Below, one piece after another: positions 3,381-32,788 of a stretch of 64,000 nt of DNA (position 1 is its first letter; every line of letters starts with the position of its first letter). Source of the DNA: Geothrix sp. (lineage in GTDB: Bacteria; Acidobacteriota; Holophagae; Holophagales; Holophagaceae); the NCBI RefSeq assembly GCF_030219325.1, contig NZ_CP126625.1:3584857-3648856 (forward strand), read 5' to 3'. The notes beneath the pieces were generated by a model that was not told where the DNA came from, searched no databases, and saw only the letters and a list, made by a program, of their open reading frames with translations. The translations under genes were made by a program, and so were the position numbers.

Positions 3381-3458
3381 GGCGGCTGTAGCTCAGTTGG
3401 TTAGAGTACTGGATTGTGATTCCAGGTGTCGCCGGTTCGAGTCCGGTCAGCCGCCCCA
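3381..3458 (+). tRNA. tRNA-His (GTG)
   Basis: Complete cloverleaf. The anticodon loop TTGTGAT on a CTGGA/TCCAG stem reads GTG. It shows the tRNA-His hallmark of an extra 5' G (G-1 at 3381) opposite discriminator C73 at 3455. CCA is encoded at 3456-3458. The T-arm is GCCGG-TTCGAGT-CCGGT. Confidence 0.97.
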
Positions 3459-3495
3459 GATTGAAAAGCCCCCGCCCGCGGGGGTTTTTCAATCT
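3458..3495 (+). terminator. bidirectional intrinsic terminator after tRNA-His
   Basis: A long inverted repeat: AGATTGAAAA-GCCCCCGC on the left mirrors GCGGGGG-TTTTTCAATCT on the right. The GC core is followed by a T-run and preceded by an A-run, so it can work in both directions. It starts at the last base of the encoded CCA. Confidence 0.85.
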
Positions 3496-3498
3496 GGA

Positions 3499-3640
3499 AC
3501 GAGCCGGGAGTCGAACCGGCGACAGTGAGCTTGCGGAGACAGCGCGGGGCGCTGTCGGAGCAAGATCGGCAGACCGCGCAGCGGGCTGCGGCCGGTTCGA
3601 GTCCCGGTGGCATGGGTCGAAGCCCCGGGCAGGCCGACAC
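3499..3640 (+). repeat. tRNA-associated structured repeat, copy A1
   Basis: Immediately downstream of the tRNA-His terminator. It begins with an inverted copy of the tRNA T-arm (3501-3523, core GAGTCGAACCGGCGAC). Next comes AGTGAGCTTGCGGAG, then hairpin 1 (3539-3555, ACAGCGC-ggg-GCGCTGT), GGAGCAAGATCGGCAGA, and hairpin 2 (3574-3584, CCGC-gca-GCGG). It ends with a direct T-arm-like segment (3588-3611, with GGTTCGAGTCCC). CTTGC and GCAAG form an outer stem around hairpin 1. The same architecture follows the tRNA-Arg and tRNA-Pro genes in this window. No coding potential is credible here. Confidence 0.8.
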
Positions 3641-3740
3641 CCACCCCCGGAGGGCCGGAGCAAGATCGGCAGACCGCAAAGCGGGCTGCGGCCGGTTCGA
3701 GTCCCGGTGGCATGGGTCGAAGTCCCAGACAGGCCTCCGC
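3641..3740 (+). repeat. tRNA-associated structured repeat, copy A2 (5'-truncated)
   Basis: A second copy exactly 100 bp downstream of A1, matching it almost base for base from GGAGCAAGATCGG to AGACAGGCC. Hairpin 2 is CCGC-aaa-GCGG at 3674-3684, so the loop changed and the stem was kept. It lacks the inverted T-arm and a normal hairpin 1. It ends 2 bp before the stop of the convergent AraC gene. Confidence 0.78.
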
Positions 3741-3742
3741 CC

Positions 3743-15200: not shown

Positions 15201-18200
15201 GGCGTGTTCAGGTACTTGAAGTGGGCGAGGGCCCCGGCCGAGCCGTTGCCCATGTTGTGGCAGGTGGTGCAGGCGATGGCGTTGGCCGCGTTCGTGGCGT
15301 TATGGGTGCCAAGGCTGTGCCGGCCGAAGGCATCGTTGAACTGGGCCGTGGTCGCGGAGGAGGCCGCCACACCATGACAGGCCGTGCACTGGACGCCGCT
15401 GTTGATCGCGCCCGTCTGCCAGCTGGGGGTGGCCTGGCCGCCGTGGCAGCTCACGTTCGAGCAGGTGAGCGCGGCCGGGGTGAAGAGGGAGGTGCCTGTC
15501 TTCGCGTTGAACGTGGCATCCATGGACACGGGCGCGGGGCCCGTGGGCGTGGCGACCCGCGCGTTGGCATTCGCATAGTGGGTGGCGGTGCCGCTGCCGC
15601 TGCCGGCGTGGCAGGTGTTGCAGGTCAGCGCCGTGGCCAGGTTCATGTGCTTGGTGTGGGCGCCGGCGATGCTGGGGAAGGTGGTGCCGCCGGGGCCCTT
15701 CGGCAGTCCGCTGGTGCCCGCATGGCAGGACAGGCAGGTGGCGGGGCCCGATGCGGCCAGGGTGGGATCCGCGAGCTTGTGGCACACGTTGCAGAGCGGC
15801 GCCGCGGCCATGGGCGAGCTGCCCGAATAGGCATGGCAGGCGGAGCAGTCCGCCGTGAAGACGGCCGCGGTGGCGGTGACGTGGCCATTGCCCTGGGTGT
15901 CGGTCTGGCCCGAGAGGAACGGGATGGCGTGCGGGGCGCCGCTGGCGGTCCAGGTGTCCACCGTCGCCACGTGGATGTGGGTGTGGCAGGTGAGGGCGCA
16001 GCCGCCGTTGCCCTGGGTGGCGCTCGTCACCGTGTAGGTGCCAGGGCCCGTGACGATGGCGGGGTTGAACACGATGGTGCCGCTGGGCAGCTGGTCCACG
16101 GGCAGGCCCGTGGCCACGGCGTCCACCGCCGGGGTGTTCAGGTACTTGAAGTGGGCGAGCGCGCCAGCCGAGCCGTTGCCCATGTTGTGGCAGGTGGTGC
16201 AGGCGATGGCGTTGGCGGCATTGGTGGCGTTGTGGGTGCCGAGGCTGTGGCGCGCGAAGGCGTCGTTGTACTGGGTGGTGGTCGCCGAGGAGGCGGCCAC
16301 ACCGTGGCAGGCGGTGCACTGCGTGCCGCTGTTGAGGGTGCCGCCCTGCCAGGCGGGGGTCCCCTGACCGCCGTGGCAACTGACGTTCGAGCAGGTGAGC
16401 GAGGCGGGCGTGAAGGTGGGGTTGCCACCACTCTTCGCCTTGAAGGTGGGATCCATGGCCACGGTGCCGGGTCCAGTGGGGGCCGCGGTCCGCGCGTTGG
16501 CATTGGCGTAATGGGTGGCGGTTCCCGTGCCGGCGCCGGTATGGCAGGTGTTGCAGGTCAGGGCCGTGGGCAGGGCCAGGTGCTTCGCATGGGCTCCGGG
16601 AAGGCTGGGGAAGGCCGTGCCGGCGGGGCCGGCGGGCAGGCCCGCGGGACCGACGTGGCAGGACAGGCAGGTCCCGGCCCCCGTCGCGGCCAGGGTGGGA
16701 TTGGCCAGGGCATGGCAGATGGAGCAGAGCGGGGAAGCGGCGTTGGGCGAGGTTCCGGAGTACGCATGGCAGTTGGCGCAGTCCGCCGCGAAGATGGCGG
16801 CCGTGGCCGTCAGGTGGCCATTGCCCTGGACATCCTTCTGTCCGGTGAGGAAGGGCACCGGATGCGGGACGTTGGCGAAGGTCCAGTCATTCACGGCGGC
16901 GGTGTGGATGTGGGTGTGGCAGGTGAGGGCGCAGGTGCCGCTGCCCTGGGTGGCGCTGGTCACCGCGTAGGTGCCGGGGCCCGACACGATGAGGGGGTCG
17001 AAGGCGATGGTGCCGCTGGGCATCTGGTCCGCAGGCGCTCCGCTCGAGGCGCCGTCGACCGCCGGGGTGTTCAGGTACTTGAAGTGGGCCAGGGCGCCGG
17101 GCGAGCCATTGCCCATGTTGTGGCAGGTGGTGCAGGCGACGGCGTTGGCCGCGTTCGTGGCGTTGTGCGTGCCGAGGCTGTGCCGGCCGAAGGCGTCGTT
17201 GAACTGGGTGATGGTGGTCTTGGAGGCGGCCACGCCGTGGCACGCGGTACATTGTGTCCCGCTGTTGATCGTGCCGAACTCCCAGGCGGGCGTGGCCTGG
17301 CCCCCGTGGCAGCTCACGTTCGAGCAGGTCAGGGAGGCGTCGGTGAACGCGGGCGCCCCGCCCGTCTTGGCTGCGAACAGGGGATCGATGGCCACGCTGG
17401 CGGGCCCGGCGAGCTGCCAGAGCCGGGCATTGGCGTTGTCGTAGTGGGTGAAGGTGCCGCTGCCGCTGCCGCTGTGGCAGGTGTTGCAGGTCAGCGCCGT
17501 GGCCAGGTTCATGTGCTTGGCGTGGGCGCCGGCGATGCTGGGGAAGCCGGTGCCCCCGGGGCCCTTCGGCAGTCCGCTGGTGCCTTCGTGGCAGGAGCGG
17601 CAGGTGCCGGCATTGGTGCCCGGCAGGGTGGGATCCGCCAGTTGGTGGCATTCCTGGCAGAGCGGGGCCGTCGTCGTGGGGGAGGTGCCCGAATAGGCGT
17701 GGCAGTTGGCGCAGTCGGCGGCGAAGGCCGTGGCCGTGACGGTCAGGTGGCCATTTCCGCTGCTGGTGGTCATCCCGGCGAGGAAGGGGATCGGATGGGG
17801 GGCGACCTTGTCGTCGTGGCAGAGGGTCGCGTTGAAGCAGCCCGGCTGGGTACCTGCGGGCGCGGGGATGGCGGGGTGGCCGATCGGATTCTTCGCCGAG
17901 CCCGGGAAGTGGCACTGGACGCAGACGGCGGCATTGGACGGATCGGTCGTCACGTGGGTGAAGGTCGAGCCAGGGCCTAGGCGCCAGGGCTTGGGCGGAT
18001 GCGGGGCGCTCACGCCATGGCAGGTGACGCAGGCATTGGCGGCGGGGCCGCCCGAGAAGTCCTTGTCGTGGCAGATCTGGCAGGAGGCCAGGCCCGCGCC
18101 GGCCGGCGTGCCGATCGCCGACTTGGCACGCAGGCCGTGGCTGCCCGGATCCGCGAAACCGGGCGTGGACTGGTGGTGGCACCCTGTCGTCATGCAGGTC

Positions 18201-23778: not shown

Positions 23779-23855
23779 GCGCCTATAGCTCAGGTGGATA
23801 GAGCAGCAGCCTTCTAAGCTGCAGGTCGCTGGTTCGAGTCCAGCTAGGCGCACCA
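23779..23855 (+). tRNA. tRNA-Arg (TCT)
   Basis: The acceptor stem GCGCCTA pairs with TAGGCGC. The anticodon loop CTTCTAA on GCAGC/GCTGC reads TCT (AGA codons). CCA is encoded at 23853-23855. No normal terminator follows; instead the 3' half can pair over 27 bp with the adjacent repeat. Confidence 0.97.
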
Positions 23856-23984
23856 GTGCGCCTGGCTGGACTCGGACCAGCGAGTGGGATCGCGGAGGCC
23901 CTCCGGGGGAGGGCCGGGAGCGAGACCGGCGGACGGCATAGCCGGACGCGTTCGAGTCCAGCGTGAACTGGGTCGGCGCCCCAC
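23856..23984 (+). repeat. tRNA-associated structured repeat, copy B1
   Basis: Abuts the CCA of tRNA-Arg. Its first 27 bases are the reverse complement of the tRNA 3' half except at two places where G would pair with U, so the RNA can form a continuous 27-bp stem with a CCAG loop. It continues with GAGTGGGATCGCGGAG, hairpin 1 (23897-23915, GGCCCTCC-ggg-GGAGGGCC), GGGAGCGAGACCGGCGGA, hairpin 2 (23934-23944, CGGC-ata-GCCG) and a T-arm-like GTTCGAGTCCAGC. Confidence 0.82.
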
Positions 23985-24111
23985 GCGCCTGGCTGGGCTC
24001 GGACCAGCGAGTGGGATCGCGGAGGCCCTCCGGGGGAGGGCCGGGAGCAAGACCGGCGGACGGCATAGCCGGACGCGTTCGAGTCCAGCGTGAACTGGGT
24101 CCGCGCCCCAC
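23985..24111 (+). repeat. tRNA-associated structured repeat, copy B2
   Basis: A tandem copy of B1 with a 127-bp period and only about three differences. One turns GCGAG into GCAAG, weakening the outer stem. It ends 6 bp before the stop codon of the convergent EF-hand-type gene. Confidence 0.82.
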
Positions 24112-24117
24112 CAGGCC

Positions 24118-32534: not shown

Positions 32535-32677
32535 TTGCCTCTCCGTACTCGACGCCGACCCACCAAGGCGCGGATTCGAACGCATCCGGCTTCGCCGTGT
32601 GCCAGCCTTGTTCGGCGCGACATTTAGTCGCGCCTCGGCAAGTCCACTCGGAGGTTCGGATCCTCTCGCAAGCTTCC
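32535..32677 (-). repeat. tRNA-associated structured repeat, copy C (tRNA-Pro side)
   Basis: On the minus strand, after the tRNA-Pro terminator: an inverted T-arm (32673-32646, GAGAGGATCCGAACCTCCGA), CGAGTGGACTTGCCGAG, hairpin 1 (32634-32614, GGCGCGAC-5 nt-GTCGCGCC), CGAACAAGGCTGGCACA, hairpin 2 (32597-32587, CGGC-gaa-GCCG), and a T-arm-like GCGTTCGAATCC (32583-32572). The T-loop variant GAATCC follows tRNA-Pro, whereas copies A and B carry GAGTCC as their own tRNAs do. Confidence 0.8.

Positions 32678-32788
<111 letters not shown>

Follow-up and report, generated by a model that had tools for sequence, protein, structure and literature searches.

Tandem repeats behind tRNA and 5S genes of Escherichia coli, the tRNA-linked repeats (TLRs), have been known since 1978 (PMC8144298). 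In the sections of PMC8144298 that treat them, 22 units are placed at ten loci, the loci named being tyrT/rttR, proK, argVYZQ and rrA/rrB/rrF (Egan and Landy 1978 and Rudd 1999, in PMC8144298); the last 18-19 bp of each unit match the 3' end of the tRNA or 5S gene before it without a difference, and the repeats are mostly of unknown function. An inverted T-arm is not mentioned in those sections. We inspected the tyrTV, proK and other loci of E. coli K-12 and found that the units at tyrT, tyrV and proK carry an inverted copy of the tRNA T-arm at +49 to +62, with 3 mismatches in 17 positions, followed by the direct 3' end at +150 to +160. At the tyr locus the inverted T-arm was seen in units ending in CGA, and its 22-nt form matched the tRNA with 3 mismatches, compared with 6 in the best of 2000 shuffles. 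No inverted arm was found in the arg TLRs at a cut-off of 3 mismatches in 17. To our knowledge, based on part of the literature, the inverted arm has not been reported in E. coli TLRs.

The window analysed here, the whole stretch of 64,000 nucleotides, covers positions 3,584,857-3,648,856 of a single-contig Geothrix genome of 3.73 Mb. The first-pass annotation had described an inverted T-arm behind tRNA-His, a core of two hairpins, a direct T-arm and a truncated copy 100 bp further on, and our analysis recovered this layout in full (see the table). The inverted T-arm at 3507-3524 shows 94% complementarity with tRNA-His positions 3427-3444, and the direct T-arm copies, GCCGGTTCGAGTCC, lie at 3591-3604 and 3691-3704; the ends of the element thus imitate the adjacent tRNA in opposite orientations, as had been proposed. 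Copy A1 is matched by the covariance model at 3504-3606 with 73 bits. A1 and A2 belong to an 87-nt repeat family with 91% identity and a spacing of exactly 100 bp, and in A2 the inverted arm is missing, as is the 5' half of hairpin 1. The recurrence of the plan behind tRNA-Arg and tRNA-Pro, also described there, held as well: copies B1, B2 and C were recognized by model matches, and B1 and C also by their fold. The window holds two units behind tRNA-His (A2 being truncated), two behind tRNA-Arg(tct) and one behind tRNA-Pro(tgg).

Features of the element arrays in the window, with the E. coli units used for comparison (window coordinates unless a locus is named)
Feature	Position	Strand	Evidence
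tRNA-His(gtg), parent of the first array	3382..3458	+	ARAGORN; Rfam RF00005, 67 bits
Terminator-like palindrome, beginning in the CCA end of tRNA-His	3456..3497	+	inverted repeat, 95% complementary
Inverted tRNA-His T-arm copy, 5' arm of A1	3504..3525	+	inverted repeats; fold
A1 core hairpin 1, with symmetric GGA/GGA internal loop	3526..3568	+	fold; covariation
A1 core hairpin 2	3569..3589	+	fold; covariation
Direct T-arm copy, 3' arm of A1, pairing with 3504-3525	3591..3607	+	direct repeat; fold
A1 tail, up to truncated A2	3608..3655	+	sequence
Truncated copy A2, direct T-arm at 3691-3707	3656..3742	+	87-nt direct repeat
tRNA-Arg(tct)	23779..23855	+	ARAGORN; Rfam
Copy B1: inverted tRNA 3' end, core, direct T-arm, tail	23858..23985	+	model match 23865-23961, 94.9 bits; fold
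Copy B2, tandem repeat of B1, 127 bp on	23986..24112	+	model match 23992-24088, 88 bits
tRNA-Pro(tgg)	32712..32788	-	ARAGORN; Rfam
Copy C: inverted T-arm, two hairpins, direct T-arm, behind the tRNA-Pro terminator	32570..32666	-	model match 82.7 bits; fold
E. coli K-12 inverted T-arm units	L221:1045-1423 (tyrT/tyrV), L266:717-793 (proK)		

The T-arm plan of the window elements exceeds chance. Seven T-arm-like 14-mers were observed, compared with 1.1 in shuffled sequences, and seven were reached in none of 100 shuffles; the fold z-scores of the elements range from -3.6 to -8.3. Two ARAGORN calls of tRNA-Arg(ccg), at 15569-15664 and 17435-17530, were ignored; they have no Rfam support and are probably false. 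They lie 1866 bp apart within a long repetitive stretch that apparently encodes a large repeat protein with CxxCH-like motifs.

The fold was evaluated in an alignment of 13 type A units (the type found in the window) from different tRNAs and species. The predicted structure is a three-way junction whose closing helix is formed by the two T-arm copies, with 92.9% of the cells paired, and two-sided changes were found in 15 of its 32 pairs. The covariation score was 0.386, compared with 0.164 in shuffles, and none of 500 shuffles scored as high; sliding the pairing partners abolished the signal. These values, together with z-scores down to -8.3, bear out the earlier suggestion of a structured element. 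In addition, the unpaired CGAGTGG and a GA/GA internal loop show little or no variation among the 13 copies. The T-arm helix contains 85 G-U pairs vs 32 A-C mismatches. In the core, the corresponding numbers were 70 vs 66 over all distinct copies, where the A-C figure may count some pairs twice, and 40 vs 25 over representatives by our own sum. An excess of G-U over A-C, which would indicate strand-specific folding, is thus clear only in the T-arm helix and is small in the core. Part of the covariation could also be a product of quasipalindrome correction. For the E. coli repeat RrB, CsrA has been reported to bind through GGA motifs; the same idea was dropped for the present elements because GGA is not retained in many copies.

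To place the window arrays in their genomic setting, we compared the flanks of all 47 tRNA genes that Rfam identifies in the Geothrix genome. About 15 of the 47 carry such an element, and at least three core types could be told apart by eye. An inverted T-arm copy with at most 3 mismatches in 17 lies no more than 60 nt downstream of about 14 tRNAs, the carriers being tRNA-Thr(cgt), Asp, Arg(ccg), Arg(tct), Pro (three genes), Val(gac), Met (two genes), Glu(ctc), Ser(gct) and His; partial forms occur at further Ser tRNAs. Upstream matches to the inverted arm occur only between a neighbouring divergent tRNA-Ser pair. The earlier annotation had asked for a covariance-model scan of the host genome and expected linkage to tRNAs rather than to random intergenic sites. 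The scan, whose genome-wide counts come from a search with a first pass that scores a limited number of candidates, gave 12 matches, and all 12 lie behind tRNA genes and on the tRNA strand. As had also been expected, no known family accounted for the elements in Rfam: nothing but tRNA exceeded the cut-offs, at the gathering score or at relaxed thresholds.

Type A has the order CGAGTGGG-hairpin-hairpin, and its direct copy repeats 10-14 nt of the tRNA end, consisting only of the T-loop and the 3' T-stem. In type B, found at Ser tRNAs, the junctions lie inside the T-loop, and the tRNA 3' end is repeated together with the terminator. Type C, found at Val, Met and Glu tRNAs and in relatives at Arg and His tRNAs, is marked by CGAGAAA..GGTAG. 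In units of other types than A (loci L083, L085, L058 and L054), the whole tRNA 3' end with CCA and more is repeated. At four loci (L044, L046, L052 and L055), the hairpin loops of the units contain nested palindromic modules such as CTGACTCGGGC..CCGTCCTATTC; these modules are common to several tRNA loci and are perhaps separate REP-like repeats. A different arrangement was seen at L047 and L094 (G000:C1, about 1,904,000-1,905,300), where a P4-type integrase gene directly behind tRNA-Met marks an ordinary tRNA-integrated island.

The covariance model matched 35 of the 37 genus genomes searched, and it gave no match in 23 genomes outside the family. In a further search, four of five additional genus genomes were matched, and within the same family one other genus (g17) was matched four times and another (g16) once, weakly. 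Type A is therefore present in most Geothrix genomes and in a few other genera of the family. Geothrix fermentans DSM 14018 is among the strains whose genomes contain the elements. A same-strand tRNA lies just upstream of 135 of the 155 distinct genus copies, the first copy usually being 8-62 nt away, and the tRNA linkage proposed from the window alone thus extends to the genus. Copies without an upstream tRNA are mostly at contig ends, and nearly all are either at contig ends or behind tRNA 3' fragments. We inspected seven such orphan loci with about 9 kb on either side: in six of them the array is preceded by the 3' fragment of a tRNA (Thr, Met, His, Thr, Met and Pro), and the seventh is a palindromic contig. 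The arrays behind fragments (L213-L218, in G020, G003, G006, G018, G041 and G015) probably mark the distal ends of genomic islands that have entered tRNA genes, because an island that targets a tRNA splits it and pushes the array to its far end.

Beyond the genus, a scan of 84,980 genomes for inverted and direct T-arms at the spacing of the element returned 38 stretches. Nearly all the tRNA-linked matches with the element layout came from records of Geothrix, Holophagaceae or Acidobacteria; the other stretches mostly involve a real tRNA on the opposite strand. Among 297 genomes of the phylum, the T-arm palindrome pattern was enriched in the genus and in one further genus of the family (g18); the matches inspected in two other families do not lie beside tRNA genes, and the G323 matches appear to be an unrelated repeat. 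A palindrome of T-arm, terminator and inverted T-arm lies behind an apparent tmRNA 3' end in a different genus of the family (G199:C18:7144-7219; CCACCTCCACCA).

Comparison of orthologous loci revealed how the arrays change. Behind tRNA-Arg(tct) there are 0, 1, 2 or at least 4 units, which are of type A or type C depending on the species; in G002, G004 and G014 this tRNA has no unit and is followed only by an inverted tRNA end. About half of the unit pairs within one locus are very similar. For 73 of 135 copies, vs 17 expected, the nearest core belonged to the same tRNA of a different species; only 2 of the 135 had their nearest core within their own genome, at another tRNA. Units thus turn over within an array and rarely move between tRNAs, and since the nearest cores are found at the same tRNA across species and not within a genome, recent transposition of the units is unlikely. 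When inverted arms were compared with tRNA types, the assignment to their own type had the lowest mean mismatch of all 5040 assignments; the second best was nearly equal, a small margin that arises because many T-arms are alike. In the draft genome G010, a tRNA-Arg(tct) is fused at its T-arm to the tail of an array and has lost its acceptor end (L086; G010:C214:367-483), which may reflect a deletion or exchange between T-arm copies, or an assembly fault.

Several explanations of these arrays have to be weighed. The strongest rival to the reading that we favour below is that the units are functionless debris, that is, fossil attachment sites and fold-back duplications left by integrating islands and kept alike by gene conversion and quasipalindrome correction. 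Such an origin would fit the frequent use of tRNA 3' ends as island targets, the orphan arrays behind tRNA 3' fragments, the palindromes that extend through the terminator into the tRNA, and the variable copy number. Debris would not be expected to keep an unpaired CGAGTGG and a GA/GA loop nearly invariant, or to keep a three-way junction through two-sided changes, and we regard this explanation as rather unlikely. Clearly less probable is the suggestion, also raised in the first-pass annotation, of a tRNA-targeted mobile repeat, namely non-autonomous MITE-like or REP-like elements directed to tRNA 3' ends. Similar cores do occur at different tRNAs, hairpins are inserted within loops, and GTAG or GGAG stands beside hairpins as in REP elements. 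However, cores group with those of the same tRNA locus in other species and not with others of their own genome, a Y1 transposase (PF01797) was found in only 1 of the 19 genus genomes searched and is absent from this one, the phage, plasmid and viral collections searched contained no match to the element, and apart from the one palindromic contig the element is not dispersed beyond tRNAs and tRNA fragments. The REP/RAYT version of this idea fails because the transposase is absent.

It is a little more doubtful still that the elements are integron-like, with the T-loop (G|TTC) as insertion site and each unit a tiny cassette with an attC-like hairpin, moved by an integron integrase. The order of T-loop, tRNA 3' end, terminator, inverted T-loop, hairpin and T-loop mirrors an integron array, and L083 and L085 consist of exact tandem units. 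An integrase was predicted from this unit order and then found: the Geothrix genome encodes an integron integrase (TIGR02249, 463 bits) and a classic attC array, and the integrase scores above the cut-off in 18 of 41 genomes, all in the genus. Its presence does not track the elements, as G022 and G023 (96% and 98% complete) have no integrase above the cut-off, yet contain 6 and 11 elements. In addition, the right-hand box of the elements is GTTCRA, whereas the attC sites of the genome have GTTAGG, the core is a three-way junction by covariation and not a single hairpin, and cores stay at their loci within a genome. The integron itself is a sedentary one: its integrase gene lies at G000:C1:714291-715304 (L107:14292-15305), beside an array of about 11 cassettes (L107:8000-13730) with classic sites, CCTAAC...GTTAGGC. 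The least probable of the rivals is an antisense role, in which a read-through inverted arm would compete with the T-arm and cause the tRNA to misfold, the array thereby adjusting tRNA supply. At tRNA-Arg(tct), no terminator stands between the tRNA and the inverted 3' end, the gap being 8-11 nt in several copies, and pairing within one transcript would be possible. On the other hand, a terminator intervenes in most other carriers, and for the inverted arm its own direct copy is an equally good pairing partner. A bolder proposal, to which we give about the same small chance as to the integron reading, would be a system that propagates itself by way of the T-loop of each tRNA gene: tiny structured cassettes would be inserted there or removed by a recombinase of the host, perhaps the integron integrase, and would adopt the arms of the tRNA entered; the E. 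coli TLRs would then be another branch of it.

The explanation that we favour, and consider probable, though by no means assured, is that the Geothrix elements are TLR-type arrays that were born from the tRNA 3' end, grow and shrink in place and are probably read through as structured RNA. By TLR we mean non-coding structured units directly behind a tRNA gene, with the T-arm in both orientations and in tandem arrays. This reading brings together what was observed of their anatomy, tRNA linkage, covarying fold, family-wide distribution, gain and loss of units, and inheritance with the tRNA locus. Birth in place is the best explanation because the array is locus-bound and its arms derive from the tRNA. 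Fold-back copying, i.e. template switching at the terminator hairpin, would create the palindrome of T-arm, terminator and inverted T-arm, and a tandem duplication ending in the T-loop would then add the direct arm and give rise to the array. Copy number would change, and units would stay alike, through recombination or slippage between T-arm copies; the fusion at L086 may be what such an exchange produces. As for use, by analogy with E. coli TLR RNAs, which lie between two terminators, read-through of the tRNA terminator would transcribe the unit, which would fold into the three-way junction closed by its two T-arm copies. In our judgement, maintenance of the fold as a read-through RNA is favoured, in keeping with the other option of the first-pass annotation, a transcribed tRNA-linked RNA: the unit has terminators on both sides, like its E. 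coli counterpart, and the wobble pairs of the T-arm helix favour the sense strand. The terminator between most tRNAs and the first unit counts against read-through, and the steps of birth and turnover are more secure than that of use.

Since 1978, TLRs have been a small curiosity of E. coli, mostly without a known function. Their counterparts in Geothrix, which share the inverted T-arm layout and occur in dozens of genomes of another phylum, turn them into a comparative problem and make the fold, the conserved core, the change in copy number and the derivation from the tRNA end accessible to tests. They also bear on the evolution of the sequences behind tRNA 3' ends, where genomic islands prefer to integrate.

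Among known systems, REP/RAYT elements resemble the present units in being short, non-coding and palindromic, but the latter are bound to tRNA ends and not dispersed, and a RAYT-type transposase is absent from the genome. Integron arrays share the unit order and the G|TT junctions, and an integrase occurs in most genus genomes; in contrast, the elements have no GTTRRRY / RYYYAAC box, unlike the genome's own attC sites with GTTAGGC, form no single imperfect attC hairpin, persist without an integrase and are locus-bound. The TLRs of E. coli differ as well. The Geothrix core is unrelated in sequence (the model R1 gave no match on E. coli tyrTV), it belongs to another phylum, where about a third of the tRNAs carry units and at least three core types occur, its three-way junction is backed by covariation, and the type A direct copy of 10-14 nt is shorter than the 18-19 bp given for the E. 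coli repeats (PMC8144298). In the published definition of TLRs, homology between loci plays no part, so unrelated cores do not exclude membership. Both kinds of unit are tandem and structured, lie directly behind tRNA genes and end in a copy of the tRNA 3' end. According to PMC8144298, E. coli loci contain one to five tandem units, comparable to the 1, 2 or at least 4 (and in some species 0) behind Geothrix tRNA-Arg(tct), and the rRNA-operon repeats are flanked by terminators, as is the Geothrix unit. The first-pass annotation had known no named family of this form, but the E. coli TLRs have it: at tyrT/tyrV and proK, as in full Geothrix units, an inverted T-arm, a feature outside the published TLR definition, precedes the core, and it lies 49-62 nt behind the tRNA in E. 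coli, as in Geothrix.
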